From Sphingobium yanoikuyae (GTDB lineage Bacteria > Pseudomonadota > Alphaproteobacteria > Sphingomonadales > Sphingomonadaceae): a DNA stretch of 64,000 nt. Under the pieces are notes generated by a model. That model was not told the DNA's origin. It saw nothing but the letters and a program-made list of their open reading frames with translations, and ran no database searches. Made by a program: the position numbers and the translations under genes. Every line of letters starts with the position of its first letter. Position 1 is the stretch's first letter. Positions 38,395 to 64,000 of the stretch are shown piece after piece. The stretch is taken from positions 1,488,001-1,552,000 of the forward strand of contig NZ_CP139979.1 in the NCBI RefSeq assembly GCF_034424525.1, read 5' to 3'.

Positions 38395-39162
38395 TTATCG
38401 GCCGATGAAGTTCGGGGCGCGCTTGTCCCGCGTTGCGGCCAGCCCCTCGCGATGATCGGCGGTGGTCGCCAGCAGCGGCTGGACCAAGAACTCGCGGTCG
38501 AGGAACTGGTCGAAGGATAGCGTGGTCGCCTCGAACAACTGTTTGCTCATCGCATGCGCGACAGGCGGCCCCTTCGCAAGGCGGGTGGCCAGGTCGACGG
38601 CGGCATCGCGGATCGGGCGGCCTGCCTCGATCGAGAGGATGAGGCCGAGCTGCAAGGCTTCATCGGCGGTCAGCGTCCGGCCGCTATAGACGATTTCCTT
38701 CGCGCGCATCGGGCCGACCAGCCGGGTCAATTGCCAGATGGCGCCGGCGTCGGGGGCATAGCCTATCCGGCCGAACAACTGGGCGAAGCTGGCGTTCGGG
38801 CTGGCGAGGATCAGGTCGCAGGCGAGCGCCAGGCTCCAGCCGGCACCGACGCAGACGCCGTCGACCGCTGCGATGACCGGCTTGGGCATGGTCATGATGG
38901 CGCGGATCATGCGGTGGAGCGCGCGCATCCGCTTGAGGAAAGCGGCACTGTCGGCGGCGCCCATTTCGCCGGTATCGGCGCCCGAGCAGAAATGCCCGCC
39001 TGCGCCGGTCAGGACGACCGCCCGAACCCCGTCATCCTGGGCGAGATCGTCGAACAGCGTGGCGATCTCGCTGCGCATCGCCATGGTGAACGCATTGCGC
39101 CGGTCGGGGCGATCGAGCGTCACGATCGCCACTGCGCCGTCATGCTCCAGCCGTAAGGTCAT
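38395..39162 (-). CDS. Enoyl-CoA hydratase/isomerase (crotonase) family protein
   Basis: ATG 39162 overlaps the upstream esterase stop by four bases and gives 255 residues. Oxyanion loops GAGGHFCSGADTGEM and GVCVGAGWSLALACDLILAS are present. At the usual first catalytic Glu (PE-x-x-x-G) the sequence reads LFGRIG, so Phe replaces Glu; the second Glu is kept in RAKEIVYSG. That suggests isomerase, hydrolase or other crotonase chemistry rather than classic hydration. It belongs to the esterase transcript in the catabolic supercluster. Confidence 0.88.
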   Translation of the reverse strand: MTLRLEHDGAVAIVTLDRPDRRNAFTMAMRSEIATLFDDLAQDDGVRAVVLTGAGGHFCSGADTGEMGAADSAAFLKRMRALHRMIRAIMTMPKPVIAAVDGVCVGAGWSLALACDLILASPNASFAQLFGRIGYAPDAGAIWQLTRLVGPMRAKEIVYSGRTLTADEALQLGLILSIEAGRPIRDAAVDLATRLAKGPPVAHAMSKQLFEATTLSFDQFLDREFLVQPLLATTADHREGLAATRDKRAPNFIGR

Positions 39163-40694
39163 GGCGTGGGCGTCCAGCCGAAGGACTGGCCACTTTCCCG
39201 CTGCCATTTGTCGAACCAGGGGGCGAGCTGGCGGGCGCGGAAGTCCGGGGTGGCGGCGATATGCTGGCCGATGACCAGTGGGTTGGTGCGACCGTCCTGG
39301 CTGGCGGGCCATGGCGGCAGGCCGGGGCCGTTAGGATCGCCGCTCCGCACATAGTTCAGCATCCAGCCTGACATGGTTCTGGCGAGTGCCCGGCTTTCCG
39401 CATCGGCCGAGGGGGACTGGCCGAGCCAGAACAGCCGGTCGGCGCAATGGTCTGCGCCGGGTTTCGAACTGCGCTGCTCGGGCGGCACGAAATCGAACTG
39501 ATAGGCGCGCGCCGGCAGGCCGGCGCGGGCCGCCAGCTGGGTCATGCCGAGCGCCGCCGAGGTGAACAGGAAATCGGTTTGCACCTGGCGCAGCAATTCC
39601 GCCTCTTCGGACAGGTTATAGCTGGCGGACACGGCCGACAGATCGATGCCGAAGCGGCGCGCCATTTCGGCCCGGCCAAAGCCCATCAGGCCAAAGACGC
39701 TGGCTTCGTTGCTGGTCGATCCGCTGATCAGCGGGACATGCGCGATCTGGCCCCTTGCGAACAGGGTGGAAAGGGGAGCAGGGAGCCAGCTGCCATCGAC
39801 GGTTGCGCCAAAGTCCGGCGCGCCGCTGTCGCCGGCCAGCACCTGTGCGACGCTGAGCCTGCGCAGGGCAGCGAGCGATGGCGAGCCATCGCCGGTCACG
39901 CCGGTGCGCTGGGCAAAGGCCAGTCCCTGTTCCTGCGCCTGGGGCAGGGGGCGGTTGGCGTTGAACAGGCCGCCGGCCGAATGGGCGCTGGCGCGGGCGA
40001 ACAGGCCCCTGGCCATCGGCGTCGCCATCAGCGCATTGATGCTGGAGCCGCCTGCCGAACAGCCGATGATGGTCACATTGTCGGGATCGCCGCCGAAGCG
40101 GGCGATATTCTGCCTGACCCAGTGCAGCGCCGCGACCTGGTCCATCAGCCAGAAATTGGCGGTCGCCTTGGGCGCTTCTTTTGTCAAGGCGGGATGGGCG
40201 AAGAAGCCGAGCCGCCCGATGCGGTAATTGGGGGCGACGAGGACGACACCCCGCTTGACCAGCGGCGGCATGCCGTTGCGGAACGGCTCCCGACCCGAGC
40301 CGACGAAATAGGCGCCACCATGGGCGACGAACAGCACCGGCAATTTGCGGGCGCCAAGGTCGGGCGAGGCGACGTTGAGGGTCAGGCAATTTTCATCCTG
40401 GGGGAAGGCGGCGTCCCCTTTGCGCTGTGGCTGGGGGCAATCGGCAGCAAAGCCTGTAGCGTCACGCTCGGTCTTCCAGGAGCGGACCGGTTGCGGTGCG
40501 CGCCAGCGATTGGCGCCGACCGGCGGCGCGGCATAGGGGATGCCGCCAAAGAAGCGGACATCGTCGCGCATCACGCCGCGGATCGGCCCGGACGTGGTGG
40601 ACAATCGGGGCGGTGCCGAAGAAGGCGCGGCATTTCCAAGGCTTGCCCATAAAGCGACGGCCGTAGCCGCGCAGGCGACAGGGCGCTGCACCAT
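39159..40694 (-). CDS. Exported type-B carboxylesterase
   Basis: Of three close ATGs, 40694 best fits GAGGGG nine bases upstream, giving 511 residues with a signal peptide (MVQRPVACAATAVALWASLGNA). Type-B features include FGGIPYAAPPVGANRWRAPQP, DENCLTLNV, FVAHGGAYFVGSG and FGGDPDNVTIIGCSAGGSSI. The elbow is GCSAG where most relatives have GESAG. Acid and histidine (SNEA and the ADHCADRLFW region) are present. It should hydrolyse a carboxyl ester in the periplasm. A TGCC-N6-TGCA operator-like site lies about 24 bases upstream. Confidence 0.9.
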   Translation of the reverse strand: MVQRPVACAATAVALWASLGNAAPSSAPPRLSTTSGPIRGVMRDDVRFFGGIPYAAPPVGANRWRAPQPVRSWKTERDATGFAADCPQPQRKGDAAFPQDENCLTLNVASPDLGARKLPVLFVAHGGAYFVGSGREPFRNGMPPLVKRGVVLVAPNYRIGRLGFFAHPALTKEAPKATANFWLMDQVAALHWVRQNIARFGGDPDNVTIIGCSAGGSSINALMATPMARGLFARASAHSAGGLFNANRPLPQAQEQGLAFAQRTGVTGDGSPSLAALRRLSVAQVLAGDSGAPDFGATVDGSWLPAPLSTLFARGQIAHVPLISGSTSNEASVFGLMGFGRAEMARRFGIDLSAVSASYNLSEEAELLRQVQTDFLFTSAALGMTQLAARAGLPARAYQFDFVPPEQRSSKPGADHCADRLFWLGQSPSADAESRALARTMSGWMLNYVRSGDPNGPGLPPWPASQDGRTNPLVIGQHIAATPDFRARQLAPWFDKWQRESGQSFGWTPTP

Positions 40695-40717
40695 CTCCAT
40701 CATCCCCTCATCAATTT

Positions 40718-40731
40718 TGCCCTATGGTGCA
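40718..40731. promoter_or_regulatory. TGCA-N6-TGCA family site (TGCC variant) upstream of esterase
   Basis: The bases TGCCCTATGGTGCA match the repeated operator-like motif with one change in the left half. They lie 24 bases before the esterase start, where a bound repressor would block transcription. Part of the site, CCTATGGTGCA, recurs as CCTATAGTGCA near 45406. Confidence 0.5.
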
Positions 40732-40793
40732 TAATAATGTTGGAGACGATTATCGCTGTCAAGCGCGCAGGCGCGTTGACAGGGTCATGAATC

Positions 40794-40807: not shown

Positions 40808-40851
40808 ATATAAAGAGGCGCGAACAGGGGCGCACGGAGAAGGATGAGAGC

Positions 40852-42897
40852 ATGAAGGGAAGAGTGTCGACGGCCGTGGCGATCCTGGCTCTGGCGAGCG
40901 GGCTGGTCGCCTGCGGAGCGGACAGCGCAGCGCCGGGCGGACCGACCGCCAACTGGTCCAGCTTTGGCGGCGACGACAAGGAGCAGCATTATAGCGCGCT
41001 CGACCAGATCAGCGCCGACAATGTCGGCAAGCTCGGCCTCGCCTGGTCCTATGATATCGACACCTATGACAGCTATACCCAGCCGCTAGCGATAGATGGC
41101 GTGCTCTATTTCGCGGTCGGCCTGTCGGTCGTCCATGCGCTCGACGCCAAGACCGGCAAGTTGCTTTGGCAATATGATCCCGATGTGGCGAGCCAGCCGG
41201 AGGCGAAATGGCGGATGCGCGCCGGCTGGGGCACGCGCGGCATCGCCTATAAGGACGGGCTGATCTATACCGCCACCCGCGAAGGCCGGCTGATCGCGGT
41301 CGACGCCAAGACCGGCAAGCCGCGCTGGTCGGTCCAGACGCTGGACGAGGCGGAAAACGGCTATATCACCGGCCCGCCATGGGTCGCCGGCGACAAGATC
41401 GTGGTCGGCTTTGGCGGCGCGGATTACAGCCCGACCCGCGGCTATGTGACCGCCTATGATGCCAAGACCGGCAAGAAGGCGTGGCGCTGGTTCGTGGTGC
41501 CGGGCGATCCGGCCAAGGGCTTCGAGAACAAGGCGATGGAGGCGGCGGCCAAGACCTGGACCGGTGAATGGTGGAAGTTCGGCGGGGGCGGCACGGTGTG
41601 GCATGCCATGGCCTATGACGCCAAATATGACCGAATCTACCTGGGCACGGGCAATGGCTGGCCGTGGAACCAGAAGATCCGTTCGCCCGGCGGCGGCGAC
41701 AATCTCTATCTCGCCTCGATCGTGGCGATCGACGTGAAGACCGGGGAATATGCCTGGCACTATCAGGTGAACCCGGAAAACAGCCACGATTTCAACGATG
41801 CGATGGATATCGAGCTGGCCGATATCGAGATTGGCGGCAAGATGCGGTCGGTGCTGATGCATGCGCCCAAGAACGGCTTCTTCTATGCGCTGGACCGCGA
41901 GACCGGGAAATTCATCTCGGCCGGCGAGTTCGCCAAGCAGAATTGGGCCAAGCGGATCGATCCGGTCACCGGCCGACCCGAGATCAATCCCGAGGCGCAA
42001 TATCCGAACGGCAAGCCGTTCATGATGTACCCCTTCCCCAATGGCGCGCATGGCGTCCAGGCGATGGCGTTCAGTCCCAAGACGAACCTCAGCTATATTC
42101 CGGTGATGGAGGGCGGCCGCGTGTTCGTCGATCCGGCCAATGTGAAGGACTGGACCTACAAGCCGGGGATGATGGTCAATACCGGTCTGGGCGCGCCGCC
42201 GGCCAATCTGGTGCCGCCCGCCGCGGTGAGCAAGCTGGTCGCCTTCGACGTCGCCAACAACAAGGTCGCCTGGTCGGTGCCGCAACCTGGCGTGTTCAAT
42301 GGCGGCATCATGGCGACCGGTGGCGGCCTGCTGTTCCAGGGCACCAATGACGGCAATTTCAACGCCTATTCCGCGACCGACGGGCGCAAGCTCTGGTCCT
42401 TCCCGGCGCAGAACGGCATATTGTCCGCGCCGATCAGCTATACGGTCGGCGGCAAGCAATATGTGTCGGTGATCACCGGTTTCCGCAGCAGCTTCCCCAA
42501 CGTGCCCAACTGGGATTATCGCCAGCAGCAGCGCCGGGTGCTGACCTTTGCGATCGGCGGCACCAAAGCGCTGCCCAAGTTCGAGCCGGTGGACGAGCCG
42601 ATCCAGGATGATCCGGCCTTCATCGTCGACGCCGCCAAGGCCAAGGTCGGCGGCGGCATATACAATAGCAGCTGCGTCATCTGTCATGGCGCGGGCATGA
42701 TGGCGGGCGGCGCCGCGCCCGACCTGCGCAAGTCGGCGGTGCCGCTGGACGCGGAGACGTTCAAGTCGGTGGTGCATGACGGGGCGCTGATGGCGCGCGG
42801 CATGGGCGCCTTCGAGCAATTGAGCGACGCCGATCTGGAAGGGCTGCGCCATTATATCCGCCAGCGCGCGCGGGAAACCGCGCCCAAGGCGAACTGA
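40852..42897 (+). CDS. PQQ-dependent alcohol dehydrogenase with C-terminal cytochrome c (lipoprotein)
   Basis: The 681-residue product has a lipoprotein signal ending GLVACGAD. An eight-blade propeller follows with tryptophan-docking repeats such as VVHALDAKTGKLLWQYD and LIAVDAKTGKPRWSV. A cytochrome c domain has CVICH and a later Met (ARGMGAF). It should oxidise an alcohol in the periplasm and pass electrons to the respiratory chain. The adjacent-cysteine disulfide of classic quinoprotein ADHs is absent (RAGWGTRGIAY). The catalytic Asp region reads HDFND with Asn two residues after the Asp. Operator-like TGCA sites flank the gene. Confidence 0.93.
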   Translation: MKGRVSTAVAILALASGLVACGADSAAPGGPTANWSSFGGDDKEQHYSALDQISADNVGKLGLAWSYDIDTYDSYTQPLAIDGVLYFAVGLSVVHALDAKTGKLLWQYDPDVASQPEAKWRMRAGWGTRGIAYKDGLIYTATREGRLIAVDAKTGKPRWSVQTLDEAENGYITGPPWVAGDKIVVGFGGADYSPTRGYVTAYDAKTGKKAWRWFVVPGDPAKGFENKAMEAAAKTWTGEWWKFGGGGTVWHAMAYDAKYDRIYLGTGNGWPWNQKIRSPGGGDNLYLASIVAIDVKTGEYAWHYQVNPENSHDFNDAMDIELADIEIGGKMRSVLMHAPKNGFFYALDRETGKFISAGEFAKQNWAKRIDPVTGRPEINPEAQYPNGKPFMMYPFPNGAHGVQAMAFSPKTNLSYIPVMEGGRVFVDPANVKDWTYKPGMMVNTGLGAPPANLVPPAAVSKLVAFDVANNKVAWSVPQPGVFNGGIMATGGGLLFQGTNDGNFNAYSATDGRKLWSFPAQNGILSAPISYTVGGKQYVSVITGFRSSFPNVPNWDYRQQQRRVLTFAIGGTKALPKFEPVDEPIQDDPAFIVDAAKAKVGGGIYNSSCVICHGAGMMAGGAAPDLRKSAVPLDAETFKSVVHDGALMARGMGAFEQLSDADLEGLRHYIRQRARETAPKAN

Positions 42898-43099: not shown

Positions 43100-43837
43100 T
43101 TGACGACGGACAAGGACATGGCTGACCTCAAGGAAAATGGCGATCGGCCGCAGACCTATTCCAGTCCGGCGATCATCGAACGCCGTCGCCGGATATTGGA
43201 GGAAACGCGCAAGGTGATCGCCGAGCAGGGGATCGCGGCGCTGAGCATGAACGAGATCGGCCAGCGCGCGGGCGTCGCCAAGCGGACGCTCTACAACGCC
43301 TTTCAGACCCGTGAGCGCATGATCGCCACCGCGATCCAGGAATATTTCGACGAATATGTCAGCCGCATCGTCTATTCGAGCCCGCCCGGCACGATGCAGC
43401 ATAATCTGGAGCGGATGATCTCGGTCGTCCAGCGCAACCGGGAGATCCGCAATTATATCAAGGCGATCATGGCGCTCTATTTCAGTTCGGATGTCGACCG
43501 CGACATCTGGACCGCGATGCACTCGCCGGCCATCCATCATAACAAGCAGTGGATCGAGGCGCTCGACGCCGCGAAGCAACTGCAACCCTGGGTGCAGGTC
43601 GACAAGCTGGTCGATGATCTGGTGCGCTTCGAATATGCGACGATCAATGATTGGGCACAGGGCCGCATCCCCGATGACGAGGTGATCGTCCGTCTGGTCA
43701 GCAGCTATCTGTCCTGCCTGCTCGGTTCGCTGAAGGGCGCGGCGCGCAAGGAAGTCGAAGCGCTGATCAAGGATATTGCCGAGCGCGGCATGGACGCGCT
43801 GCCGATGTCGCCCAAGACCAAGACGAAAGCGGCTTGA
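43100..43837 (+). CDS. TetR-family regulator of the catabolic cluster
   Basis: TTG 43100 is nine bases after GGGGAGGA; ATG 43118 is an alternative. The 245-residue product has the helix-turn-helix ILEETRKVIAEQGIAALSMNEIGQRAGVAKRTLYNAFQTRERMI and a long ligand domain. It sits between the PQQ dehydrogenase and the crotonase operon, and the motif TGCA-N6-TGCA appears before it, before both flanking units and before the esterase. I infer that it is the local repressor; the ligand is probably a pathway intermediate. Confidence 0.88.
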   Translation: MTTDKDMADLKENGDRPQTYSSPAIIERRRRILEETRKVIAEQGIAALSMNEIGQRAGVAKRTLYNAFQTRERMIATAIQEYFDEYVSRIVYSSPPGTMQHNLERMISVVQRNREIRNYIKAIMALYFSSDVDRDIWTAMHSPAIHHNKQWIEALDAAKQLQPWVQVDKLVDDLVRFEYATINDWAQGRIPDDEVIVRLVSSYLSCLLGSLKGAARKEVEALIKDIAERGMDALPMSPKTKTKAA

Positions 43838-43840: not shown

Positions 43841-43876
43841 TGCACCATGATGCAAATTTTCTTGCATCATGGTGTG
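43841..43876. promoter_or_regulatory. Double operator: 13-bp perfect inverted repeat
   Basis: CACCATGATGCAA (43843-43855) and TTGCATCATGGTG (43862-43874) are perfect complements around six bases. Each arm contains one TGCA-N6-TGCA-type site (43841-43854 perfect; 43863-43876 with TGTG at one end). Centres are 22 bases apart, two helical turns. It lies 56 bases upstream of the crotonase gene, just after the TetR stop codon. Confidence 0.7.
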
Positions 43877-43931
43877 CGCCTCGTCTAGGCATGCCCCAGG
43901 CCCGACATGGGCATCAGCATGGGAGAGTGAG

Positions 43932-44753
43932 ATGAGCGCGCCGAGCGAAGACCCCGAACTGTTGTTCGAGCTGCGCGAGGATGGTGTCGCCGTCATCACC
44001 CTCAACCGGCCGCGCGCGAAGAACACCGTCTCCTTCACCATGTGGGAGCAGTTTTCCGCTGCGCTCGACCGGCTGGAAAATGCGACGCCGGCACGGATGC
44101 TGATATTGTGCGGGGCGGAGGGCTATTTCAGCAATGGCGGCGACGTGAAGCTGCCGCCAGCGCGGGGCGAGGGCGCGTTGCGGCTCGCCGCTCGGCTGGA
44201 GATGGGGCAGCGGATCATCCGCCGGCTGCGCGCGCTGCCGATCCCGACCGTAGCGGCGGTGGAGGGCGGCGCCTATGGCGTGTCCTGGAGCCTGGCGATG
44301 GCCTGCGACATGATTTTCGCTGCTGACAATGCGCGGTTCGGTGCGCCGTTCCTGGATTTCGGGCTGGTGCCCGATGGCGGCGCGGCCTGGTTCCTGACCA
44401 AGCAACTGGGGCGGGCACGCGCGGCCGAGATCATCTTTTCGGGGCGGACATTGGAGGCGGCCGAGGCGCTGAGCCTGGGGCTGGTCAGCCGGCTGGTCCC
44501 GCCGGGCGAGGCGGTCGCGCAGGCGCTGGCGCTGGGCGCGACGATCGGTGGCGGCAATGCCCATGCGGTCGAACTGACCAAGCGGCTGCTGGATCAGGCG
44601 GAAAGCGGCGACCTGTCGGCCAATCATGCGCTGGAACTGGTCTATTGCCATACCTGCCAGGCGGGGGAGGAAGTGCCCCGCGCCCGCGAGGCGTTCAAGG
44701 CACGAGCAGCGGCGAAGGCTGCCGCGAAGGGCGCAACTGGGGCGAAGGAATAA
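43932..44753 (+). CDS. Enoyl-CoA hydratase/isomerase (crotonase) family protein
   Basis: ATG 43932 after GGGAGAGTGAG gives 273 residues. Crotonase loops CGAEGYFSNGGDVKL and GGAYGVSWSLAMACDMIFAAD are clear. The first catalytic Glu position reads PFLDFG, with Phe in place of Glu; the second is kept in RAAEIIFSG. It is a paralogue of the crotonase at 38395, with the same substitution. It is first in a plus-strand operon that continues through a flavin reductase and, after a 140-base gap, the CoA-transferase. Confidence 0.88.
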   Translation: MSAPSEDPELLFELREDGVAVITLNRPRAKNTVSFTMWEQFSAALDRLENATPARMLILCGAEGYFSNGGDVKLPPARGEGALRLAARLEMGQRIIRRLRALPIPTVAAVEGGAYGVSWSLAMACDMIFAADNARFGAPFLDFGLVPDGGAAWFLTKQLGRARAAEIIFSGRTLEAAEALSLGLVSRLVPPGEAVAQALALGATIGGGNAHAVELTKRLLDQAESGDLSANHALELVYCHTCQAGEEVPRAREAFKARAAAKAAAKGATGAKE

Positions 44754-44756: not shown

Positions 44757-45398
44757 ATGCAGTTCGACATGCGCAGCCTGCCGATGGCGACCCGCTACAA
44801 GATCGTCAATTCGACTATCACCCCGCGTCCGATCGCCTGGGTCACCACCCGGTCCGAGGCTGGCGTGGTCAATGCCGCACCCTACAGCTTCTTCAACTGC
44901 GTCGGCACCGAGCCGCCGCTGGTGGCGCTGGGCCTGCTGAAGGAGCCGATGTCGCGCGGCCTGAAGAACACGGCGACCAATATCGTCGCCACCGGCGAGT
45001 TTGTCGTGAACCTGGTGTGCGAGGATGATGCCGAGAAGATGAACCATTGCAGCGTCGATGCGCCGGCCGATGTTAGCGAGATCGACTATGCCGGGATCGA
45101 GACCGCGCCGTCGGTGCTGGTCGCGCCGCCACTGATCGCCAGCAGTCCGGTCAGCTTCGAATGCCGCAAGGTCGCGGCGATGGACATCGGCACGATGCAG
45201 ACGGTGATCATCGGCGAGATCGTCATGGCGCATGTCCGCGACGAATTCATCACCGATCGTGAGCGTGTCTATTTCGACACGCCGGCGATGAAACTGATCG
45301 GCCGCACCCATGGCAGCGGCTGGTATGTGCGCAACGGCGACAGTTTCCAGATGGACCGGCCGCGTTATGATCCGGCGCGGCTGACGGGCAAGGAATGA
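44757..45398 (+). CDS. Flavin reductase-like FMN-binding split-barrel protein
   Basis: The 213-residue product begins with the family hallmark YKIVNSTITPRPIAWVTTRSEAGVVNAAPYSFFN and contains KNTATNIVATGEFVVNL. Such proteins reduce FMN with NAD(P)H for two-component monooxygenases or act on flavins directly. The start lies three bases after the crotonase stop. An LLM-class flavin-dependent oxygenase is encoded three genes downstream, a probable partner. Confidence 0.88.
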   Translation: MQFDMRSLPMATRYKIVNSTITPRPIAWVTTRSEAGVVNAAPYSFFNCVGTEPPLVALGLLKEPMSRGLKNTATNIVATGEFVVNLVCEDDAEKMNHCSVDAPADVSEIDYAGIETAPSVLVAPPLIASSPVSFECRKVAAMDIGTMQTVIIGEIVMAHVRDEFITDRERVYFDTPAMKLIGRTHGSGWYVRNGDSFQMDRPRYDPARLTGKE

Positions 45399-45538
45399 AT
45401 TTGAACCTATAGTGCAATATTACTTGCGCTGCCGGGAAAAAGCGTGTCTGTTTCAAGGGAAAGGCCGGAGGCGCGATTCCGCGCACTACCGGCCAGATCC
45501 CAGAAGAGGCGGCGCAGACCGCCAAACAGGAGTGCGTG

Positions 45539-48980: not shown

Positions 48981-48982
48981 GC

Positions 48983-53343: not shown

Positions 53344-55401
<2,058 letters not shown>

Positions 55402-55415
<14 letters not shown>

Positions 55416-57489
55416 TCAAGCCTCTGTGCGTTTGGGCGCCCGGCTGGCCGGCGGATTGCGCGGCCAGCACCTGACGGGCGCGTTGGCGGAAATAATGCTG
55501 GAGTCCGGCGATCTCGTCGTCGGTCAGTTCCTGGAAGCGCGGCATGCCTCGTTCGCGCAGGATGCCGTTGTGCAGCACATCCTTCATGCTGGCGGTGTCG
55601 AGCGGAACGCCCGACTGGAGCAGGTCCGGCGCGGCGCCGCCCGACACGGCGTTGGCGCCATGGCAGATGGAGCAGCGCTGGCCAAAGACGGTGGCGCCGA
55701 TGGCGGCCCTGGCCGGATCGACGGCGAAGGCGGGATCGTCGATCACCGGCATGTCGACGGGATCGACCCTCGGCAGCGCCGCCTTGCCATCGAGGGCGAA
55801 GGTCAGGACGCGCCATTGCTGGGTGCGGTAATTCCATTCGCGTGGCAGGCCGATCGCGCTGGGGAAGCGGGAGCCGGCGATCACCGTCACATATTGTTTG
55901 CCGCGCGCGCGATAGCTGATCGGCTGGGCCATCACGGCCGTCTGGGCGTCGAACGACCAGAGCGGCTTGCCGCTGATGGCGGCATAGGCGACGAACTTGC
56001 CGCCGGCATTGCCCTGGAACAGCAGATTGCCGGCCGTGGTCGCGGTGCCGCCGCCGCCGCGCAGGCCGGGCATGGGAATGCGCCAGGCCTCGCTCTGCGT
56101 CACCGGGTTCCAGGCGAGCAGGAAGCTGGTGGCGGGACGATCGGGCGTGACGCCGGGCGGTGGCGCGCCGGTGCCGACGCTGATGCGCTGGCCGTCCAGA
56201 TGCTTCCAACCCTTAAGCGGTTCGGCCGGGTCGATATAGACGCGGCCCTGGTCCATCGTCGGGATATAGACGAGGCCGCTGCCCGGATTGAAGGACATCG
56301 CCTCGATATTATGGGCACCAAAGGGCGAGGGGTAGACGATCGCCGCCTTGCCGCCGGGATAGCGGGCGGCGGGGTTTTCGATTGGTCGGCCACTCTTGAC
56401 GTCGATGCCGCTGGCCCAGTTGACCGGGACGATGTTGCGGGCGGAGATAAGCTTTCCGGTGGCGCGGTCGATGACGTAGAAGAAGCCGTTCTTGGGCGCG
56501 TGCATCAGCACGTCGCGTTCGTGCCCGTCGATCTTCAGCCGGGCGAGTTCCATGTCCATCGCCGAGTTGAAGTCCCAGGTTTCGCCCGGATTGGTCTGAT
56601 AGTGCCAGACATATTCGCCGGTGTCGGCGTCGAGCGCGACGATCGAGCAGAGGAAGAGATTGTCGCCGCCGCCCGGACTGCGGATCTTCTGGTTCCAGGG
56701 CGAGCCATTGCCGACGCCGATATAGATGCGGTTATATTTGGGGTCATAGGCCATGGCGTTCCAGGCGGTGCCGCCACCGCCATATTTCCACCACTCGCCG
56801 GTCCAGGTCTTGGCGGCCATCGCCATCGCCTTGTTCTCGAAGCCGAGCTTCGGGTCGCCGGGCACGGTGTAGAAGCGCCAGAGCTGCTTGCCGGTCTTCT
56901 GGTCATAGGCGGTGACATAGCCGCGGATCGGGGCGAAATCGGCGCCGCCATGGCCGATCAAGACCTTGCCGTTGAACACCCAGGGCGCGCCGCTGATATA
57001 GCGTTCGTCATCCTTGCCGATGGTCTGGGTCGACCAGAGCCTGTGCCCGGTGCGGGCATTGATGGCGATCAGCCGGCCGTCGATCGTGCCGACATAGACG
57101 GCGCCATTGTCATAGGCGATGCCGCGACTGCCCCAGGCGCCGCGCATCTTCTTGTCGGCAACCTTCCAGCTTTGCGGATCATAGGTCCATAGTTCATGGC
57201 CGGTGGCGGCGTCGACCGCGTGGACGACGCTGTAGCCCGAGGCATAATAGAGGATACCGTCGACCGCGATCGGTGCGGTCAGGCTGGAGCCGCCGCCTTC
57301 GATATCCTGATACCAGGCGAGGCCGAGCCGGCCGACATTATGGTCGTTGATGTCCTTCAGCGGGCTGTAGTGATTTTCATCGATGCCGCCATAGCCGGGC
57401 CAGTCGGTGCCGTCGCGCCGGGCCTGGCCCGAGGGCGCACAGGCGGCGAGCAAGGCGAGAAACGGCAAAGTGAGGGACGCAAGACGCAT
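55402..57489 (-). CDS. PQQ-dependent alcohol dehydrogenase with cytochrome c domain, second copy (lipoprotein)
   Basis: The 695-residue product has a lipoprotein signal (FLALLAACAPS), PQQ propeller repeats (VVHAVDAATGHELWTYD, LIAINARTGHRLWSTQT) and a terminal cytochrome c (CSICH). It is a paralogue of the enzyme at 40852 and also lacks the vicinal cysteines (RGAWGSRGIAY) and has Asn two residues after the catalytic Asp (WDFNSAMD). It should oxidise an alcohol in the periplasm. It sits inside the CoA-pathway operon, between the acyl-CoA synthetase and FadB-like genes. Confidence 0.93.
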
Positions 57490-57494: not shown

Positions 57495-59030
57495 TCAGCC
57501 CCCGATCGTCCGGTCGGACGGCCAGAAACGCTGGCGCAGCGCCTTCTTGTTGACCTTGCCCATGATGGTGCGGCCGATGTCATCGACCATCTCGTAGCCG
57601 CGCGGACATTTATAGCCGGCCAGGCTGGCACGGCAGAAGGCGTTGAGTTCGTCGGCGCTCGGCGGATCGGCCGGATCGCGCGGGATCACCAGCGCGCGGG
57701 CTTCCTCCCCCATTTCCGCATTGGGGGCGGCGACCACGGCGATGTCGGCCACCTTGGGATGGCGCAGCAGCACATGTTCGGATTCCGCTGGATAGATGTT
57801 GACGCCGCCCGATACGATCATGTCGGACACGCGATCGGTGATGAAGAGATAGCCGGCATCATCGACATAGCCCATCTCCCCCAGGGTGAAGATGCCCGGC
57901 GCGATATGGGCGGCGGCGGTCTTTTCCGGGTCGCCGCGATAGACGATGCCATGGCCGCTGGTGTCACGGAAATAGACCTGGCCGACCTCGTTGGCGCCCA
58001 GCACCGCGCCATCGTCTCCGTAAATGACGGTTTCGAACGGGGCCAAGGCGCGGCCGACCGATCCAGGGCGTTCCAGCCATTCTGGCGAGGTGATGAAGGT
58101 GGTCGAGCCGGCTTCGGTGCCGCCATAGGCCTCCACCAGCACCGGGCCGAACCAGTCGATCATCGCCTGCTTTACGGCGCGGGGGCAGGCCGCGCCGGTA
58201 TGGGCGAGGCGCTGGATGCTGGAGACGTCATATTTCGCGCGCACTTCTTCCGGCAGGGCGAGCATGCGCTGGAAATGGGTGGGCACCATGACCGAGCCGG
58301 CGACCCGATATTTCTCGATCAGGGCCAGCGCCCTTTCCGCGTCGAAATGCTCGACCGTGATGAGGCTCATGCCGCCGAAGACGTTGCGGGCCATGCCGAG
58401 CGGGCCGGTATGGTAGAGCGGGCCGACAGCGATGCCGGGCGAGGGCGTGATGCGGGCGCGCACGGTTTCCGCCAGCGCCTGCACTGTGGCGACGCGCGGG
58501 AAATATTGCGGCGGGGTCTCGGTCGCCTTGGGCCGGCCGGTGGTGCCGGAGGTATAATGGAGATGGGGCAGCGGCGGCACGCTGGGGTCGGGCTCGGCGG
58601 TCGAGGCGGCGGCGAGCCACGCTTCCCAATGGATGATGCCTTCACGATCGGGACAGCGCCAGCCGATCACGGTGCCGACACCGGCCTCGGCCGCAGCGGC
58701 AAGGCCGGCCTCCATCGTTTCCGGGCCGACCAGCAGGGCGACGGCGCCGCTGTCCTTCAAAATATAGGCGGCCTCCGACGGGGTGAGGTGGAAGCTGACC
58801 GGGACGCTGGAAATGCCGGCCTCCAGACAGGCGACATAGGCGATCACGGTTTCGGCGCTGTTAGGCGCGAAGACGGCGACGCGCCGTTCGCGCAGGTCGA
58901 GGCCATTGAGGGCATTGGCGGCGCGATTGAGCAGGTCATCCAGTTGCAGCCAGTCGAGCGAGACACGCTCGTCGGTCAGCGCCATGTCGGTGCGACGGTC
59001 GGGCGCGACAGCCTGGAGGGTGAGTGACAT
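57495..59030 (-). CDS. AMP-dependent acyl-CoA synthetase
   Basis: ATG 59030 (MSLTLQAV) follows AAAGGA and gives 511 residues; a longer open frame upstream is antisense-like and overlaps the MFS gene. Adenylating motifs are HYTSGTTGRPKATE (A3), EAYGGTEAGSTTF (A5), YLFITDRVSDMIVSGGVNIYP (A7-A8) and GKVNKKALRQRF with the A10 lysine. It activates a carboxylic acid to its CoA thioester with ATP. Position suggests that it acts on the acid made by the PQQ alcohol dehydrogenase encoded next to it. Confidence 0.92.
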   Translation of the reverse strand: MSLTLQAVAPDRRTDMALTDERVSLDWLQLDDLLNRAANALNGLDLRERRVAVFAPNSAETVIAYVACLEAGISSVPVSFHLTPSEAAYILKDSGAVALLVGPETMEAGLAAAAEAGVGTVIGWRCPDREGIIHWEAWLAAASTAEPDPSVPPLPHLHYTSGTTGRPKATETPPQYFPRVATVQALAETVRARITPSPGIAVGPLYHTGPLGMARNVFGGMSLITVEHFDAERALALIEKYRVAGSVMVPTHFQRMLALPEEVRAKYDVSSIQRLAHTGAACPRAVKQAMIDWFGPVLVEAYGGTEAGSTTFITSPEWLERPGSVGRALAPFETVIYGDDGAVLGANEVGQVYFRDTSGHGIVYRGDPEKTAAAHIAPGIFTLGEMGYVDDAGYLFITDRVSDMIVSGGVNIYPAESEHVLLRHPKVADIAVVAAPNAEMGEEARALVIPRDPADPPSADELNAFCRASLAGYKCPRGYEMVDDIGRTIMGKVNKKALRQRFWPSDRTIGG

Positions 59031-59041: not shown

Positions 59042-60388
59042 TCAGGCGGCCGGCGCGTGGACGGCACGCGCGGCGATGGTGGGGGCGAGGTAGCGCAGGG
59101 CCATGCGGAAGGAGAGGAGGGCGACGACCGAGCAGACGGTGACGACCACCGCCAGCGACTGGCCCAGCGCGGCTTCCGACCGGAACACATATTGGGTGAG
59201 CGCGGCGACGATCGCCGGGCCGGCGCCCAGGCCCAATATGGTGAAGACGAACAGGAAGAAGGCCAGCATCCGCGCGCGGATCGTCGCCGGCGCGATCAGC
59301 CCCATGATCGAGGAGACATAGACCATGAAGGGCACGGTGATGAACTGCGCGACGCAGTAGCAGACCAGGAAGACATAGACGTTGGTGGCGAAGAACATAT
59401 AGGCGATCACCGGCAGGAAGCCGAGGATCAGCCAGCTGTAGAAGCGCAGATGCGCATCCGTCATGCCGCGCGTGAACAGGCGGTCGACGATCCAGCCGTT
59501 GATTACCAGCGACACGGCCGAAACGATGTTCATCAGGCTCAACGCCACGCCATATTGCACCGGCTTCCAGCCGAAATGCCGTTCGATATAGGCCGGCACC
59601 CAGTTGGTCATCGAATAGCCGCACATGGCGAGGCAGGAGGTGCCGACCAGCATCAGCGCCAGCAGCCGCCAGTTCTGGCGCACGAAGACAGCGATCGCGC
59701 CCTTTTCCGCAACCGGGCGCGCGGCCCTGGTCGCGCCGCGGCGGCCCGGTTCGGGGAAGGTGAAGACCAGCAGGGCAATGAGCAGGCCGGGCACGCCGAC
59801 CATCATCATCACCAGCTGCCAGGGCTGGGCCGGGCCATGGAAGGGAATATGGATGCCGCTATGCGCGGCGGCGAAGGCGATCGCGACGCCGCCCAGTGCG
59901 AAGGCGGTGGCAGAGCCGACCTTGCCCGCCATCTGGAAGGTGGAGGTGGCGCGGGTCAGCAGGCGCGGCGGGAAGGCGTCGGCAATCAGCGAATAGGCGG
60001 CGGGCAGCAGCGCCGCCTCCCCCACGCCGACGAAGATGCGGCCGACCAGCAGCGCCTCATAGCTTTGCGCGAAGCCGCAGGCGGTGGTGGCGACGGCCCA
60101 GAGCGCGACGCCGCCGAAGATGATCCAGCGGCGCGAATAACGGTCCGCCGCCCAGCCGAGCGGCAGGCCGAAAATGGCGTAGAAGATGGCGAAGGAAGTC
60201 GAGGTGATCATGCTGACCTGGACATCGCTGAGCAGCAGATGCGCCTTGATCGGCGTGACCAGCATCGACACGATCAGCCGGTCGACCCAGGACAGGACAT
60301 AGAGGCCGAACAGCACGGCCACCATCCACCAGGCGGTGCCCAGATGCTGGGTGTCGCCGCCGTCCGGGGCTCTCTCCTGGCTGGTCAT
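59042..60388 (-). CDS. MFS transporter
   Basis: ATG 60388 has GGGAAGG nine bases upstream; ATG 60394 is close. The 448-residue product has 12 predicted membrane helices, with the MFS loop 2-3 motif GLPLGWAADRYSRRW and a central cytoplasmic loop (PEPGRRGATRAARPVAEKG). It resembles the spinster-type and other organic-acid carriers common in sphingomonad catabolic operons. Import of the growth substrate or an intermediate is likely. Confidence 0.9.
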   Translation of the reverse strand: MTSQERAPDGGDTQHLGTAWWMVAVLFGLYVLSWVDRLIVSMLVTPIKAHLLLSDVQVSMITSTSFAIFYAIFGLPLGWAADRYSRRWIIFGGVALWAVATTACGFAQSYEALLVGRIFVGVGEAALLPAAYSLIADAFPPRLLTRATSTFQMAGKVGSATAFALGGVAIAFAAAHSGIHIPFHGPAQPWQLVMMMVGVPGLLIALLVFTFPEPGRRGATRAARPVAEKGAIAVFVRQNWRLLALMLVGTSCLAMCGYSMTNWVPAYIERHFGWKPVQYGVALSLMNIVSAVSLVINGWIVDRLFTRGMTDAHLRFYSWLILGFLPVIAYMFFATNVYVFLVCYCVAQFITVPFMVYVSSIMGLIAPATIRARMLAFFLFVFTILGLGAGPAIVAALTQYVFRSEAALGQSLAVVVTVCSVVALLSFRMALRYLAPTIAARAVHAPAA

Positions 60389-60422
60389 CAGCATGATCCT
60401 TCCCTTCGCCCTCTTGCGTCTC

Positions 60423-61652
60423 TCAGCGTTGCGGCAATGCGTTGAGTTCGGCGATCTTGAGCTTGCCGAGCTGGGCCATGTGGACTTCGTCCGGCCCGTC
60501 GGCGAGGCGCAGGTAGCGCGCATTCATGAAGGCGGCGGCAGGCGGAAAGTCGCTGGCCATGCCGATGCCGCCGAACACCTGCATCGCCCGGTCGGCGACC
60601 GTCTGGGTCATGCGCGGGGCGACGATCTTGATCGCGGCGATCAGATCCTTGGCGACCTTGTTGCCGTGACGGTCCATCGCGTCGGCGGCCTTGAGCGTCA
60701 GCAGACGGGCCTGTTCGATCTCGCAGAAGGACAAGGCGATATCCTGGCGGATGCTGCCCTGATCGGCGAGCTTGCGGCCGAAGGCGACGCGGCTGTCGAC
60801 GCGGCGGGCCATATATTCGAGTGCGCGCTGGGCCTGGCCGATCAGGCGCATGCAATGATGGATGCGGCCTGGCCCCAGGCGGCCCTGGGCGATCTCGAAC
60901 CCGCGTCCTTCGCCCAGGATCAGATTTTCCCTGGGCACGCGCACATCCTTGAAGACCATTTCGGCATGGCCGCCGGGCGAGTGGACGGCGTTCATCACGT
61001 CGAGCGGGCGGACGATCTCTATTCCCGGCGTGTCGGCCGGGATCAGGATCTGCGAATGCTGCTGGTGGCGCGGCCGGTCCGCATTGGGGGTGCGACCGAG
61101 CAGGATATAGACTTTGGTCAGCGGATCGAGCGCGCCCGAAATCCACCATTTGCGGCCGTTGATGACATAGTCGTCGCCATCGGCGACGATCGTCGTCTCG
61201 ACATTGGTGGCGTCGGACGAGGCGACGCCCGGCTCGGTCATGACATAGCAGGAGCGGATATCGCCAGCGAGCAGGGGCTTGAGCCATTTTTCCTGCTGTT
61301 CGGGCGTGCCGTAGCGGGCGAGCACTTCCATATTGCCGGTATCGGGGGCGGAGCAGTTATAATATTCGGATGATCCGATCACCCGGCCCATCAGTTCGGC
61401 CAGCGGCGCATATTCGAGGTTGGTGAGGCCGGGGCTCCATGCCCCATATTCATGGGGCAGGAACAGGTTCCACAGGCCCGCTTCCTTCGCCTTCGCCTTG
61501 ATCGTCTCGGTGCCCGGCCAGCGCTGCCACAGATGGGCGGGATCATGGTGGAAATGATCCCGTTCCTTCTCGATCGGATAGACATGGGCGTCCATGAAAT
61601 CGGTGAGCTGCGCCCGCAGCGCCTGCACCTTGTCGGAATATTCGAAATCCAT
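60423..61652 (-). CDS. ACAD10/11-type acyl-CoA dehydrogenase
   Basis: The 409-residue product has an acyl-CoA dehydrogenase fold: [61 protein letters not shown], and the C-terminal [34 protein letters not shown]. The last stretch is the ACAD11 signature. In animals ACAD11 is fused to an APH-like kinase and handles 4-hydroxyacyl-CoAs by phosphorylation and elimination. A separate APH-like kinase gene lies in the same operon, so the two may work together. Confidence 0.93.
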
Positions 61653-61696
61653 GCGATCGGTCCTTTTGGGAAATGGGGCGAAGGCGGGCAGGGGGA

Positions 61697-62437
61697 TCAG
61701 GTCAGCGTGAGGCCGCCGTCCACGATCAGCGTCTGCCCGCAGATGTAGGTGGAGAGGGGGGAGGCGAGGAACAGGGCGACGCCGGCCATCTCGTCCACCG
61801 ACCCGAAGCGGCCGAGCGGGATGCGCGACAGCGCGCGGTCTCGCCGCTCGTCATTGTCCATCGTCACCTTGGTCATCTTGGTATCGACCAGGCTGGGGGC
61901 GATGCCGTTGACGCGGATGCCCTCGCCAGCCCAGGCGATGGCGAGCGCGCGGACCAGATTGACGGCGCCGGCCTTGGACGCGGCATAGGCGGGGTTGCCG
62001 AAGGTCGCCTTGAACCCGCCGATCGAGCTGACAACGATGACGGCGCCCTTCGTGGCGGCGAGCGCATCCTTGAAGCGGTTGGAGATGTGGAGGATGGAGT
62101 CGAGATTGACCGCCATCACCTTGTTCCAGCCGTCGACCTCGAACTCCTGGCGGCGATAGAGGACGGCGCCCTGCGAATGGATGAGGATGTCCAGCGTATC
62201 GAAGGGGGCCGGCGCGGCGGCGATCGCGGCGGGATCGCTGACATCGACCTGGGTATAGCCGATATTGTCGAGGTCCGAGCCTTCCTCGCCGGCATAGTCG
62301 GCGGCGCTGGCGCGTGTGCCCCAGACATGGACGCGGGCGCCGCGCTTCAGGAAGGCCTGGGCCATGCCATTGCCGATGCCGCTCGATCCGCCGACCACCA
62401 GCACCGTCTTTCCGGTGAAGTCCAGTTCATTGCCCAA
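61697..62437 (-). CDS. Short-chain dehydrogenase/reductase
   Basis: I favour TTG 62437 ([17 protein letters not shown]), which has AGAAGGA about ten bases upstream, over ATG 62458, which lacks a ribosome site and overlaps that element. The product is about 246 residues. It has [36 protein letters not shown] and the catalytic AYAASKAG, plus a C-terminal [11 protein letters not shown]. The LIHSQGA loop replaces the usual NNAG. It probably oxidises a hydroxyl group on a pathway intermediate. It lies between the kinase and dehydrogenase genes. Confidence 0.88.
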
Positions 62438-62459
62438 GGGAGAACATCCTTCTTGCATG

Positions 62460-63482
62460 TCAGCGGATCAGCGCCTGGGCGCGGTCGAAAAGGTGGATGG
62501 CGCGGCTGTGGAGCCGGTCGCCGGTGTCGCGTGGGGCCTTGCCGGCACAGGCGCGGGCATGGGTGCCCTCCAGCAGGATGCCGAGCTTGTAGCAGGCGAG
62601 GACATGATACCAGTCCACCGCCGACAGATCGCGCGCGGAGCCGGCGCCATAGCGCGCGACCAGTTCGGCGGGCGCCGGGAAACCCTCCCACGGCGTGACC
62701 GACACGGTGCTGGCGCCGCTGCCGTCGGGCCAGGTGGCGAGCACCCAGCCCAGGTCCAGCAGCGGATCACCGATCGTTGCCAGTTCCCAGTCGATGATCG
62801 CGGCAAGATCGCCGCTGTCGGGGCGGTACATGACATTGGCGAGATGATAGTCGCCATGCATGATGCCGGGGGTAAAATCGGCCGGGCGGTGCCGTTCCAG
62901 CCAGGCGGCGATGGCGTCGACCGAGGGCAGCGCCTGCGGCCCGGTCCAGTCGGCAAATTCGCCATAGCCGGCCAGTTGGCTGCGCCAGCGATCGACCTGG
63001 CGGCCGAGGAAATTGTCGGGCCGGCCGAAATCGGCCAGGCCCAGCGCCTGATGATCGAGCGCGCCCAATGCGGCGATGCCGTCGACCAGCGCCAGGCCCA
63101 TGGCATGGCGCATCGCCGGCGACCCGGCATGGGGCATGGGCAGCTGGCCGACCGGATTGAAGCCATCGACCGGCTCCATCAGGTAGAAGGCGACGCCCAG
63201 CACGCTTTCGTCGCCGCAATCGGCGATCAGCGCGGGATGGGGGACATTGGTGCCGGCGATGGCGCGCAGCAGCCGGGCCTCGCGCCGCATCGTTTCATTG
63301 CTGTTGGGGCGGGGATGCGCCGGCGGGCGACGGAAGATATAATCGCGGCCGTCGCGGGTCAGGCGCAGCAGGATATTCTGCGTCCCCCCGGCAAGCGGCG
63401 TCACGTTGTCGATCGGACCGGCGCCAAGCCCCTGATCCGTCATCCACGTCGCCAGCGACTCGATGTCGACCGCTGATTCCAC
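62460..63482 (-). CDS. APH-fold phosphotransferase (ACAD10/11 kinase-like)
   Basis: The 340-residue product has the aminoglycoside-phosphotransferase kinase fold: nucleotide loop LAGGTQNILLRLTRDGRDYIFRRPPAH, catalytic MHGDYHLANVMYRPDSG, and metal site AIIDWELATIGDPLLDLGW. The RPPAHPRPNS element is typical of the kinase domain fused to ACAD10/11 and of LvaA-type hydroxyacyl-CoA kinases, not of antibiotic-resistance enzymes. It is first in the ten-gene operon and is followed by an SDR and an ACAD11-type dehydrogenase. Confidence 0.9.
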   Translation of the reverse strand: MESAVDIESLATWMTDQGLGAGPIDNVTPLAGGTQNILLRLTRDGRDYIFRRPPAHPRPNSNETMRREARLLRAIAGTNVPHPALIADCGDESVLGVAFYLMEPVDGFNPVGQLPMPHAGSPAMRHAMGLALVDGIAALGALDHQALGLADFGRPDNFLGRQVDRWRSQLAGYGEFADWTGPQALPSVDAIAAWLERHRPADFTPGIMHGDYHLANVMYRPDSGDLAAIIDWELATIGDPLLDLGWVLATWPDGSGASTVSVTPWEGFPAPAELVARYGAGSARDLSAVDWYHVLACYKLGILLEGTHARACAGKAPRDTGDRLHSRAIHLFDRAQALIR

Positions 63483-63557
63483 TTAGGCATCCCTCGCTTT
63501 TTTCGACTGTTAGCCGTCGATTAGGTCAATTGGATAATGCACTTGACGAACCAGCAT

Positions 63558-63574
63558 TGCAATGAGAAATTGCA
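63558..63574. promoter_or_regulatory. Palindrome TGCAAT-N5-ATTGCA in the divergent promoter region
   Basis: Perfect six-base arms surround GAGAA, 3 bases before the TetR gene start and 75 bases upstream of the kinase start. The position so close to the TetR ATG suits autorepression and control of the ten-gene operon. It shares the TGCA core with the sites near 40.7-43.9 kb but has wider spacing. Confidence 0.6.
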
Positions 63575-63577
63575 CTC

Positions 63578-64000
63578 ATGGTTAGACTTCAACTCGCCAA
63601 GGCCGATGATGCCACCCGCGGTTCTGCTGCCGAGCAGATCAAGCAGGTGGCGTTGCGCCTGTTCGCCGAAAAGGGCGTCGATGGCGTGACCGTGCGCGAG
63701 ATTGCGGCGGCGGCGGGGCAGAAGAATCACGGTGCCGTCAGCTATTATTTCGGGTCGAAGGAGGCGCTGGTCCGGGCGCTGGTAATGGACGGCGCGATGG
63801 CGCTCGAACGGGAGCGCAATGCGGCGCTCGACGGGCTGGAGGCGCAGGGCGGGCCGCGCTCGATCCGCGAAGTGGTGGAGATATTGGTGCGGCCGGTGCT
63901 GGCGCTGCCCGATAGCCATTATGTCCAGTTCATCGTCATCTTTGCCATGACCCATCGCGACATGATGCTGGATGCGATCGATCCGGCCTGGAACAATGCC
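63578..64000 (+). CDS. TetR-family regulator (3' truncated by window edge)
   Basis: ATG 63578 opens a frame of 141 codons that continues past the window. The protein begins MVRLQLAKADDATRGSAAEQIKQVALRLFAEKGVDGVTVREIAAAAGQKNHGAVSYYFGSKEALVRALV, an unmistakable TetR helix-turn-helix, and proceeds into a ligand domain (SIREVVEILVRPVLALPDSHYVQFIVIFAMTHRDMM). It is divergent from the ten-gene catabolic operon with a palindrome between them, so it probably regulates that operon and itself. Confidence 0.9.
   Translation, partial: MVRLQLAKADDATRGSAAEQIKQVALRLFAEKGVDGVTVREIAAAAGQKNHGAVSYYFGSKEALVRALVMDGAMALERERNAALDGLEAQGGPRSIREVVEILVRPVLALPDSHYVQFIVIFAMTHRDMMLDAIDPAWNNA

Follow-up and report, generated by a model that had tools for sequence, protein, structure and literature searches.

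We analysed a 64,000-nucleotide stretch of the Sphingobium yanoikuyae genome (the window; NCBI RefSeq assembly GCF_034424525.1, contig NZ_CP139979.1, positions 1,488,001 to 1,552,000), which is G000:C1:1488001-1552000 in our numbering, G000 being the window's own 5.5-Mb genome. From position 38395 on, it carries an esterase, two quinohaemoprotein alcohol dehydrogenases, a luciferase-type protein and a ten-gene operon with a predicted retro-aldolase and an ACAD11-type dehydrogenase, and it ends within the regulator gene of an operon for biosynthesis of the cofactor F420. We give roughly even weight to the reading that these genes make up the greater part of a conserved island that breaks down a bulky compound, oxygenated and probably terpenoid-like, and that has an F420 supply of its own. 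Gene classes are based on gene calling followed by Pfam and NCBIfam profile scans of the window proteins; the features, in window coordinates, are as follows.

38395..39180, minus strand: ECH1, crotonase-type protein (PF00378, E 1.6e-53)
39159..40703, minus strand: COE, exported type B carboxylesterase (PF00135, COesterase, E 1e-84)
40852..42897, plus strand: PQQ1, quinohaemoprotein alcohol dehydrogenase 1, lipoprotein-like N-terminus (PF01011/PF13442; TIGR03075)
43100..43837, plus strand: TetR1, TetR regulator 1 (PF00440; syntenic in relatives)
43851..43866, no strand: candidate TetR1 operator TGCAA-N6-TTGCA in the TetR1–ECH2 gap (palindrome scan)
43869..44753, plus strand: ECH2, crotonase-type protein (PF00378, E 2.5e-45)
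44757..45398, plus strand: FRed, flavin reductase-like protein (PF01613, E 6.2e-25)
45413..45427, no strand: candidate TetR1 operator TGCAA-N6-TTGC upstream of the CoA-transferase (palindrome scan)
45536..47938, plus strand: two-domain type III coenzyme A (CoA)-transferase (PF02515, E 7.5e-146)
47973..48980, plus strand: LLM, luciferase-like protein (PF00296, E 5.4e-42)
48977..49624, plus strand: SnoaL-like protein, signal-like N-terminus (PF13577, E 3.3e-20)
49628..50605, plus strand: MDR quinone-oxidoreductase-like protein (PF00107; PIG3-like TIGR02824 at 224 bits, under cut-off)
50718..51770, minus strand: SMP-30/gluconolactonase-type propeller, Tat-lipoprotein-like N-terminus (PF08450, E 2.6e-25)
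51773..52189, minus strand: DUF35 OB-fold partner of the aldolase (PF01796, E 5.4e-6, just under cut-off)
52192..53343, minus strand: predicted Ltp2-type retro-aldolase, thiolase fold (best PDB match 6ok1, Ltp2, 177.7 bits)
53340..55415, minus strand: FadB-type hydratase/3-hydroxyacyl-CoA dehydrogenase (PF00378+PF02737+PF00725; the crotonase is the N-part)
55402..57489, minus strand: PQQ2, quinohaemoprotein alcohol dehydrogenase 2, lipoprotein-like N-terminus (PF01011/PF13442; TIGR03075)
57495..59027, minus strand: adenosine monophosphate (AMP)-forming acyl-CoA ligase (PF00501, E 2.2e-51)
59042..60361, minus strand: MFS carrier (PF07690, E 2.3e-40)
60423..61652, minus strand: ACAD10/11 (LvaC)-type dehydrogenase (ACAD11 2wbi, 411 bits)
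61697..62458, minus strand: SDR dehydrogenase (PF13561, E 7.3e-52)
62460..63482, minus strand: APH-type 4-hydroxyacyl-CoA kinase-like protein (PF01636, E 4.4e-40)
63558..63574, no strand: candidate TetR2 operator TGCAA-N7-TTGCA between the ten-gene operon and the TetR2/F420 operon (palindrome scan)
63578..64000, running on to 64297, plus strand: TetR2, TetR regulator 2 (profile scan)

The plus-strand side reads, in order, PQQ1, TetR1, ECH2, FRed, CoA-transferase, LLM, SnoaL and MDR, with the esterase and ECH1 to its left. The minus-strand operon runs APH, SDR, ACAD, MFS, ligase, PQQ2, FadB, aldolase, DUF35 and SMP-30, with intergenic spacings of 1, 44, 61, 14, 5, -14, -4, 2 and 2 bp. An earlier note on this stretch had proposed a single catabolic supercluster with an extracytoplasmic front end. 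Profile searches recovered every enzyme class that it listed, at or within the positions it gave, including two TetR genes (starting at 43100 and 63578) and two CoA-activating enzymes, the AMP-forming ligase and the type III CoA-transferase; the SnoaL-like exported protein, the quinone-reductase-like MDR and the SDR are additional to its list. The front end is borne out by apparent signal or lipoprotein sequences, judged by eye, on the esterase, PQQ1, PQQ2, the SMP-30 propeller and the SnoaL protein. The extent that it gave (38395..64000) proved too narrow, as the block continues about 30 kb beyond the window end, and its gene set was incomplete: the island also has F420 biosynthesis genes, a thiolase, a P450, an aldehyde dehydrogenase, a TonB receptor and a second β-oxidation set.

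Within this front end, PQQ1 (489 bits) and PQQ2 (490.4 bits) both exceed the TIGR03075 cut-off of 480.05, and each has a CXXCH haem motif (CVICH at 608 and CSICH at 606). An adjacent Cys pair near the PQQ is typical of type II quinohaemoprotein alcohol dehydrogenases; neither the PQQ1 nor the PQQ2 sequence has an adjacent Cys-Cys pair. The PDB relatives of the esterase include p-nitrobenzyl esterase and fumonisin B1 esterase, among others. The latter match prompted us to consider a fumonisin-type cluster, which was set aside as there is no aminotransferase among the genes scanned. Esterase relatives of 51–56% identity stand beside ECH2/FRed in G133, G320 and G362 and beside LLM/FRed in G296, and occur also in G212. 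A LinA-like role for the SnoaL protein was dropped, the match being a distant one (E 6e-5).

Conservation of the island across genomes

GTDB representative genomes were scanned with the aldolase, giving 12 related loci (L006–L017) with aldolases of 75–98% identity, all but two of them titled as sphingomonads; the window aldolase is 98% identical to its Sphingobium scionense counterpart. A search for genomes with the same gene order, as the earlier note had suggested, found both operons in the window's order at seven of the 12 loci (L006, L007, L008, L010, L011, L012 and L014; L010 and L014 without an MDR match), and with this collinearity the clustering is not due to chance. The L009 locus opens at a contig end that falls within FadB, and neither SMP-30 nor MDR was matched there. 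L013, L015, L016 and L017 have no LLM/CoA-transferase/FRed/ECH2 part within the fetched stretch; L017 belongs to genome G133, which has that part about 17 kb off.

Among 397 Sphingomonadaceae genomes, 11 have the aldolase (E ≤ 1e-120) and 9 have LLM (E ≤ 1e-80); the aldolase is carried by 22 distinct genomes altogether, G133 and L017 counted once. The order in G011 is that of the window, and the blocks are reshuffled in G201, G212, G133, G084, G320 and G362. ECH1 is poorly kept, with relatives of only 36–39% in the G133 and G201 blocks. A class-level draw outside the family contained 2 of 327 genomes with a 52% aldolase relative plus DUF35 partner, one of which has a 59% LLM relative within about 25 kb; in both, the F420 gene FbiC is on another contig. 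A search for a plasmid copy gave no match.

The island is thus real, conserved and larger than first described. It is made of known kinds of enzyme, and neither a description of the cluster nor a pathway with this combination was found in our searches of an open-access library with few subscription papers; the earlier note had likewise known of no pathway with exactly this set.

An F420 operon linked to the catabolic operon

F420 is a rare redox cofactor that is produced by some Alphaproteobacteria. To the right of the window, on the same strand as TetR2, lie FbiC/CofGH, NpdG, CofE, CofD, CofC and a canonical thiolase (G000:C1:1552349-1558965), the thiolase closing the operon at G000:C1:1557793-1558965. 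With TetR2 first, this operon reads divergently from the ten-gene operon. FbiC (1147 against 1018 bits), CofE (258 against 181), CofD (271 against 257) and NpdG exceed the curated NCBIfam cut-offs, as does CofC (76.5 against 22 bits), and the whole is a predicted complete F420 biosynthesis pathway ending in a catabolic gene. Proteobacterial F420 clusters, in so far as excerpts of a review describe them (PMC8498797), have the same FbiC, Fno/NpdG, CofE, CofD and CofC; unlike them, the operon here points away from a catabolic operon, with one TetR and a palindrome in front of it and a thiolase after it.

The position of FbiC was checked in 23 distinct genomes, 22 of which carry the aldolase. A contig end leaves adjacency not judgeable in six of the 22 (L009, L013, L015, G156, G206 and G308); FbiC adjoins the cluster in 14 of the 16 testable genomes (G000, L006, L007, L008, L010, L011, L012, L016, G133, G201, G212, G084, G320 and G362). 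In the window's genome and six relatives, it lies between TetR2 and the conserved same-strand thiolase. The remaining two genomes have no FbiC beside the cluster: in L014 the gene between TetR2 and the thiolase is CofD, and in G011 the thiolase comes straight after TetR2, with the F420 genes on another contig. Thiolase relatives (74–99% identity, rows under 50% dropped) occur in 13 of the genome stretches searched. They follow the F420 genes or TetR2 in L006, L007, L008, L011, L012, L014, L016, G011 and G133, adjoin APH in G320, G362 and G084, and lie about 6 kb from CofC in G201; none was found in the G212 and L010 stretches searched, the latter of which ends at NpdG.

Among genomes with several FbiC genes, the one adjoining the cluster resembles the window's FbiC most in L012 (five genes; 89% identity, the others 60–63%) and in G133 (71% against 61% for the other copy), and the two copies in G084 do not differ in this respect (58 and 59%). 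All five copies of L012 sit in one genome, G403 (Sphingobium sp. 15-1). At the level of whole genomes, cofD was found in 57 of the 397 (E ≤ 0.001; 55 over cut-off), among them all 11 aldolase and all 9 LLM genomes. G206 is the only aldolase genome under the cofD cut-off, its gene being cut by a contig end, and the 12 GTDB aldolase genomes all have cofD.

Past the F420 operon come a CYP101-type P450, an aldehyde dehydrogenase, a second MFS carrier, a TonB receptor and the second β-oxidation set, which contains a FAS1-type dehydratase-region protein (which we take to be a MaoC relative), a CoA-transferase and a thiolase. Relatives lie near the cluster in several genomes (P450, 59–66%; aldehyde dehydrogenase, 65–72%, and second MFS, 59–72%, more distant 34–35% matches of these two being left out; TonB receptor, 52–69%), as do parts of the second β-oxidation set, and the P450 is conserved nearby in five genomes, the window's included. 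Its closest solved relatives are P450cam/CYP101, a likeness to the CYP101-type terpenoid hydroxylases, although the score to P450cam is only 231 bits; a CYP125-type chain scores lower (187 bits).

Palindromes that may serve as TetR operators occur within the island. The sequence TGCAA-N6-TTGC(A) gave three strand-matches at two places in the window (43851 and 45413), where 0.54 are expected and 5 of 100 shuffles reach three. This count is weak evidence by itself, and the conservation of the element is stronger: the block before the CoA-transferase, with the 45413 element, is conserved in nine of nine aligned genomes, and the element recurs in the TetR1–ECH2 gap or just before ECH2 in G201, G212, G133 and G011. 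It is present also before the second-set CoA-transferase (L004:15710) and by the start of the second-set thiolase (L004:18401). The N7 variant between APH and TetR2 (63558; 0.05 expected, one present in 5 of 100 shuffles) is exact in six of the 11 APH–TetR2 gaps examined (G000, G011, L006, L007, L008 and L014), and G084 has one more N7 match at another place. From these predicted sites, co-regulation of the operons is likely.

Catalytic signatures of the island enzymes

Among solved structures, the ACAD is closest to ACAD11 chains (402–411 bits), together with one putative ACAD (409 bits); the next class reaches 147 bits. Features specific to ACAD10/11 include, in the accessible portion of one study, a catalytic Asp, an upstream Arg and an HCMR motif (PMC12440821). 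The window protein has the HCMR motif and the upstream phosphate-binding Arg, and the catalytic Asp (DGPDE motif, Asp replacing Glu) is present in 18 of 18 rows from 17 genomes, the motif tables holding rows of at least 50% identity. The kinase domain of ACAD11 matches the APH protein at 98 bits, and this protein has HGDYHLAN and IDWE, motifs that appear as HGD(Y/F)H(L/M)AN and (I/V)DWE in all 18 rows. In this family, according to the part of the source at hand, a 4-hydroxyacyl-CoA is first phosphorylated by the kinase; loss of the phosphate, catalysed by the dehydrogenase, then gives an enoyl-CoA (PMC11342911). The window pair bears ACAD10/11 signatures for 4-hydroxyacyl-CoA in its predicted residues, and its earlier description as ACAD11-type plus kinase stands down to that level.

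The retro-aldolase call also holds at the residue level. In the protein at 52192, Thr84 aligns with the nucleophilic Cys of the thiolase 7yvy, for which reason we rejected a true thiolase as its identity. Its nearest solved relative is TcLtp2 (6ok1), and Tyr286 and Tyr336 align with TcLtp2 Tyr294 and Tyr344, named as catalytic in the excerpt available to us (PMC12329534); Thr84, Tyr286 and Tyr336 are invariant in nine of nine aligned sequences. By these residues, the protein is a predicted Ltp2-type retro-aldolase. It shares with the Ltp2–ChsH2 (DUF35) and Sal–Shy steroid aldolases the thiolase fold, an adjoining DUF35 partner gene, the two Tyr equivalents and the missing nucleophile Cys.

The FadB-type protein of G320 and G362 lacks residues ~293–607, the whole dehydrogenase domain, in frame, and keeps the hydratase and C-terminal parts; both genomes keep the aldolase and a nearby APH-SDR-ACAD-MFS-ligase block. 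Hydratase plus aldolase without oxidation fits the needs of a retro-aldol cleavage, and, from the natural loss of the domain in these two genomes, the dehydrogenase half seems dispensable there. FadB-type proteins with the 3-hydroxyacyl-CoA dehydrogenase domain entirely missing in frame are at L095:14695-16026 and L097:11419-12588.

LLM, the sole luciferase-type F420-family member noticed in the island, falls under the F420-type cut-off (TIGR03619, 82.5 of 166.9 bits) and under a flavin mononucleotide (FMN)-type cut-off (TIGR04027, 92.4 of 412.9 bits). In the PDB it comes closest to FMN-type luciferases, and the EHH motif is one that it shares with LuxA. No chain named as a diketocamphane-type monooxygenase is among its PDB matches, so a Baeyer–Villiger step by LLM is one that we infer. 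A FRed relative (54–100% identity) was found in 11 of the 12 genomes searched, including all nine LLM genomes. LLM as an F420 enzyme is set back by these FRed relatives and by the FMN-type family signal.

The window's genome has nine luciferase-family members; of the seven scanned, LLM included, one exceeds an F420-type cut-off (G000:C1:4465943-4466863). The surrounding region (G000:C1:4461000-4484200; L162, L163) is another catabolic one, with CoA-transferase-, ACAD- and AMP-ligase-like genes. F420-type proteins over cut-off lie within a few kb of cof genes in G201 (two) and G011 (one), and a G212 F420-type protein is 82% identical to one of these. In G212 (C2, ~200300-203900), a distant quinoprotein-like gene, an F420-type luciferase-like protein and a SnoaL protein stand beside NpdG, with a similar group near CofC in G201. 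G011 has 49 luciferase-family matches in one genome.

Proposed pathway

The reading as a catabolic island with its own F420 supply draws on observed gene content, conservation, catalytic residues, F420-gene linkage and conserved operator-like palindromes. Outside the cytoplasm, the esterase, SMP-30 propeller, SnoaL protein and two quinohaemoproteins would trim and oxidise the compound; the carrier would import the resulting acid, and the ligase would form its CoA ester. The kinase would then phosphorylate a hydroxyl on the γ carbon and the ACAD11-type enzyme eliminate the phosphate to an enoyl-CoA, after which the FadB-type hydratase domain may hydroxylate a branched (tertiary) β carbon by hydration. 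The Ltp2-type aldolase with DUF35 could split the product by retro-aldol cleavage, yielding a ketone and a short acyl-CoA. The remaining ketone skeleton may be acted on by the luciferase-type protein, supplied by the flavin reductase or F420H2, and the F420-operon thiolase and second β-oxidation set would complete the breakdown. The earlier note had proposed a linear course from ester to alcohol to acid to acyl-CoA to cleavage: CoA activation and C–C cleavage stand, and the chain is too simple, because ACAD11-type chemistry takes off a γ-hydroxyl and the aldolase requires a β-hydroxyacyl-CoA.

We infer the step order, the substrate class and the identity of the F420-using enzyme. A terpenoid substrate is a guess that we favour because the P450 is near P450cam/CYP101, a TonB receptor is present and the aldolase belongs to a kind that takes off C3 side chains. 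A specific form of the model, which we consider unlikely as it stands, is an F420-dependent pathway for terpenoid γ-lactones such as sesquiterpene lactones. F420H2 would reduce the α,β-unsaturated lactone or a later enone; the lactone would be opened and its γ-hydroxyl removed by the kinase and ACAD11-type enzyme; retro-aldol cleavage, after hydration of the ring carbon, would give propionyl-CoA and a ring ketone, which LLM would open by Baeyer–Villiger oxidation. In such lactones, the carbonyl, methyl-bearing α carbon, ring β carbon and oxygen-bearing γ carbon are placed just where the proposed enzymes act.

Several observations weigh against an island of this chemistry with its own F420 supply. 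Genome-level co-occurrence was rejected as proof of F420 dependence, since a control sulfotransferase from outside the cluster (window 34639-36003), found in 17 of the 397 genomes, is likewise accompanied by cofD in 14 of the 17; F420-making sphingomonads seem to share accessory genes. The evidence for the F420 link is therefore adjacency and the conserved palindromes. Of these palindromes, the N6 element did not turn up in G320, G362 or G084 within the stretches scanned, ECH2 stretches included, and the N7 palindrome is not exact in the G201, L010, L011, L012 and L016 gaps. LLM looks FMN-type in its family matches, so that no F420-using enzyme is pinned down in the cluster, and the F420-type protein of the window's genome lies 2.9 Mb away. 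The cofactor link is accordingly strong where gene neighbourhood is concerned, and tentative as regards the enzyme. As for the cleavage, the aldolase has YDGF in nine of nine where the Ltp2 type has YDHF with its His (YDCY being the other steroid-aldolase form), and the DUF35 partner lacks its zinc cysteines in eight of nine aligned sequences, with CPEC only in G201. The remaining FadB copies, which are most of them, retain the dehydrogenase domain, and a separate dehydrogenase elsewhere may stand in for the lost one. Finally, since canonical thiolases belong to the island, ordinary thiolytic cleavage would take part somewhere.

Alternative explanations

The F420 operon could be a passenger that serves other luciferase-type enzymes and merely neighbours the catabolic operon. 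We regard this as doubtful, though a serious contender: it would suit the F420-type protein over cut-off elsewhere in the genome, the FMN-type look of LLM, and G011 and L014, where TetR2 and the thiolase stay without FbiC beside the cluster. It is countered by FbiC adjoining the cluster in 14 of 16 testable genomes through varied arrangements, by the closeness of that copy to the window's in L012 and G133, and by one operator-like palindrome between the divergent operons. The position of F420 genes between TetR2 and a catabolic thiolase, in the window's genome and six relatives, lowered our estimate slightly.

Side-chain degradation of a steroid (bile acid or sterol), in a sphingomonad variant with ligase, dehydrogenase, hydratase and Ltp2/DUF35 removing the C17 side chain, appears unlikely. 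The nearest solved relative of the aldolase is a steroid aldolase, the top profile of TetR1 is KstR (far under cut-off, at 38.8 of 280 bits), and one host is Croceicoccus estronivorus; the FAS1-type protein in the second set, presumably a MaoC relative, and a CYP125 score not far below that of CYP101 raised our estimate a little. Yet the hydratase of the ten-gene operon is FadB-type, not MaoC as with Ltp2–ChsH2 and Sal–Shy, its dehydrogenase is ACAD11-type with a kinase, and the nearby P450 is closest to CYP101/P450cam.

An elaborate version of the lva (levulinate) pathway for linear or simple γ-lactones and 4-hydroxy fatty acids is improbable. With the lva operon of Pseudomonas putida and mammalian ACAD10/11, the island shares a CoA ligase and a kinase plus atypical dehydrogenase (Asp, Arg, HCMR) of the LvaA/LvaC type, and the SMP-30 lactonase-like gene and a canonical thiolase would fit as well. 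Here, however, these are coupled to a FadB-type hydratase, an Ltp2-type aldolase not needed for a linear chain, and F420 genes, and the esterase, two quinohaemoproteins, TonB receptor and P450 would go unexplained.

It is highly improbable that the esterase/PQQ/LLM side has nothing to do with the ten-gene operon and that two separate pathways converge here by chance. Opposite strands, separate TetR genes and a distance of about 20 kb between the APH-ACAD-ligase and aldolase blocks in G084, G320 and G362 might suggest this, but the blocks stay together across genera, though reshuffled, and these same three genomes mix the sides, with both quinohaemoproteins, FadB and the aldolase in one block and the APH-to-ligase genes joined to TetR1-ECH2-FRed.

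Other features of the window

A NAPRT gene at 37007-38353 appears unrelated to the cluster. A perfect inverted repeat lies at 50641-50709, between the convergent MDR and SMP-30 genes (arms of 29 nt, spacer of 11 nt), and resembles a dispersed palindromic element or a terminator.

Implications

According to the available text of a 2021 FEMS review, experimental study had not yet reached any F420-dependent reductase or F420-reducing dehydrogenase of bacteria other than Actinobacteria (PMC8498797). The island that we propose would couple two recently understood chemistries, ACAD11-type γ-hydroxyl removal and Ltp2-type retro-aldol cleavage. In many genomes its F420 operon is tied to one catabolic operon: the two are neighbours with a TetR and a conserved palindrome in common, and the F420 operon closes with a thiolase. 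This linkage makes a role of F420 in these bacteria testable. If the terpenoid γ-lactone pathway were true, it would apparently be, in the literature covered, the first assigned role of F420 in Alphaproteobacteria.

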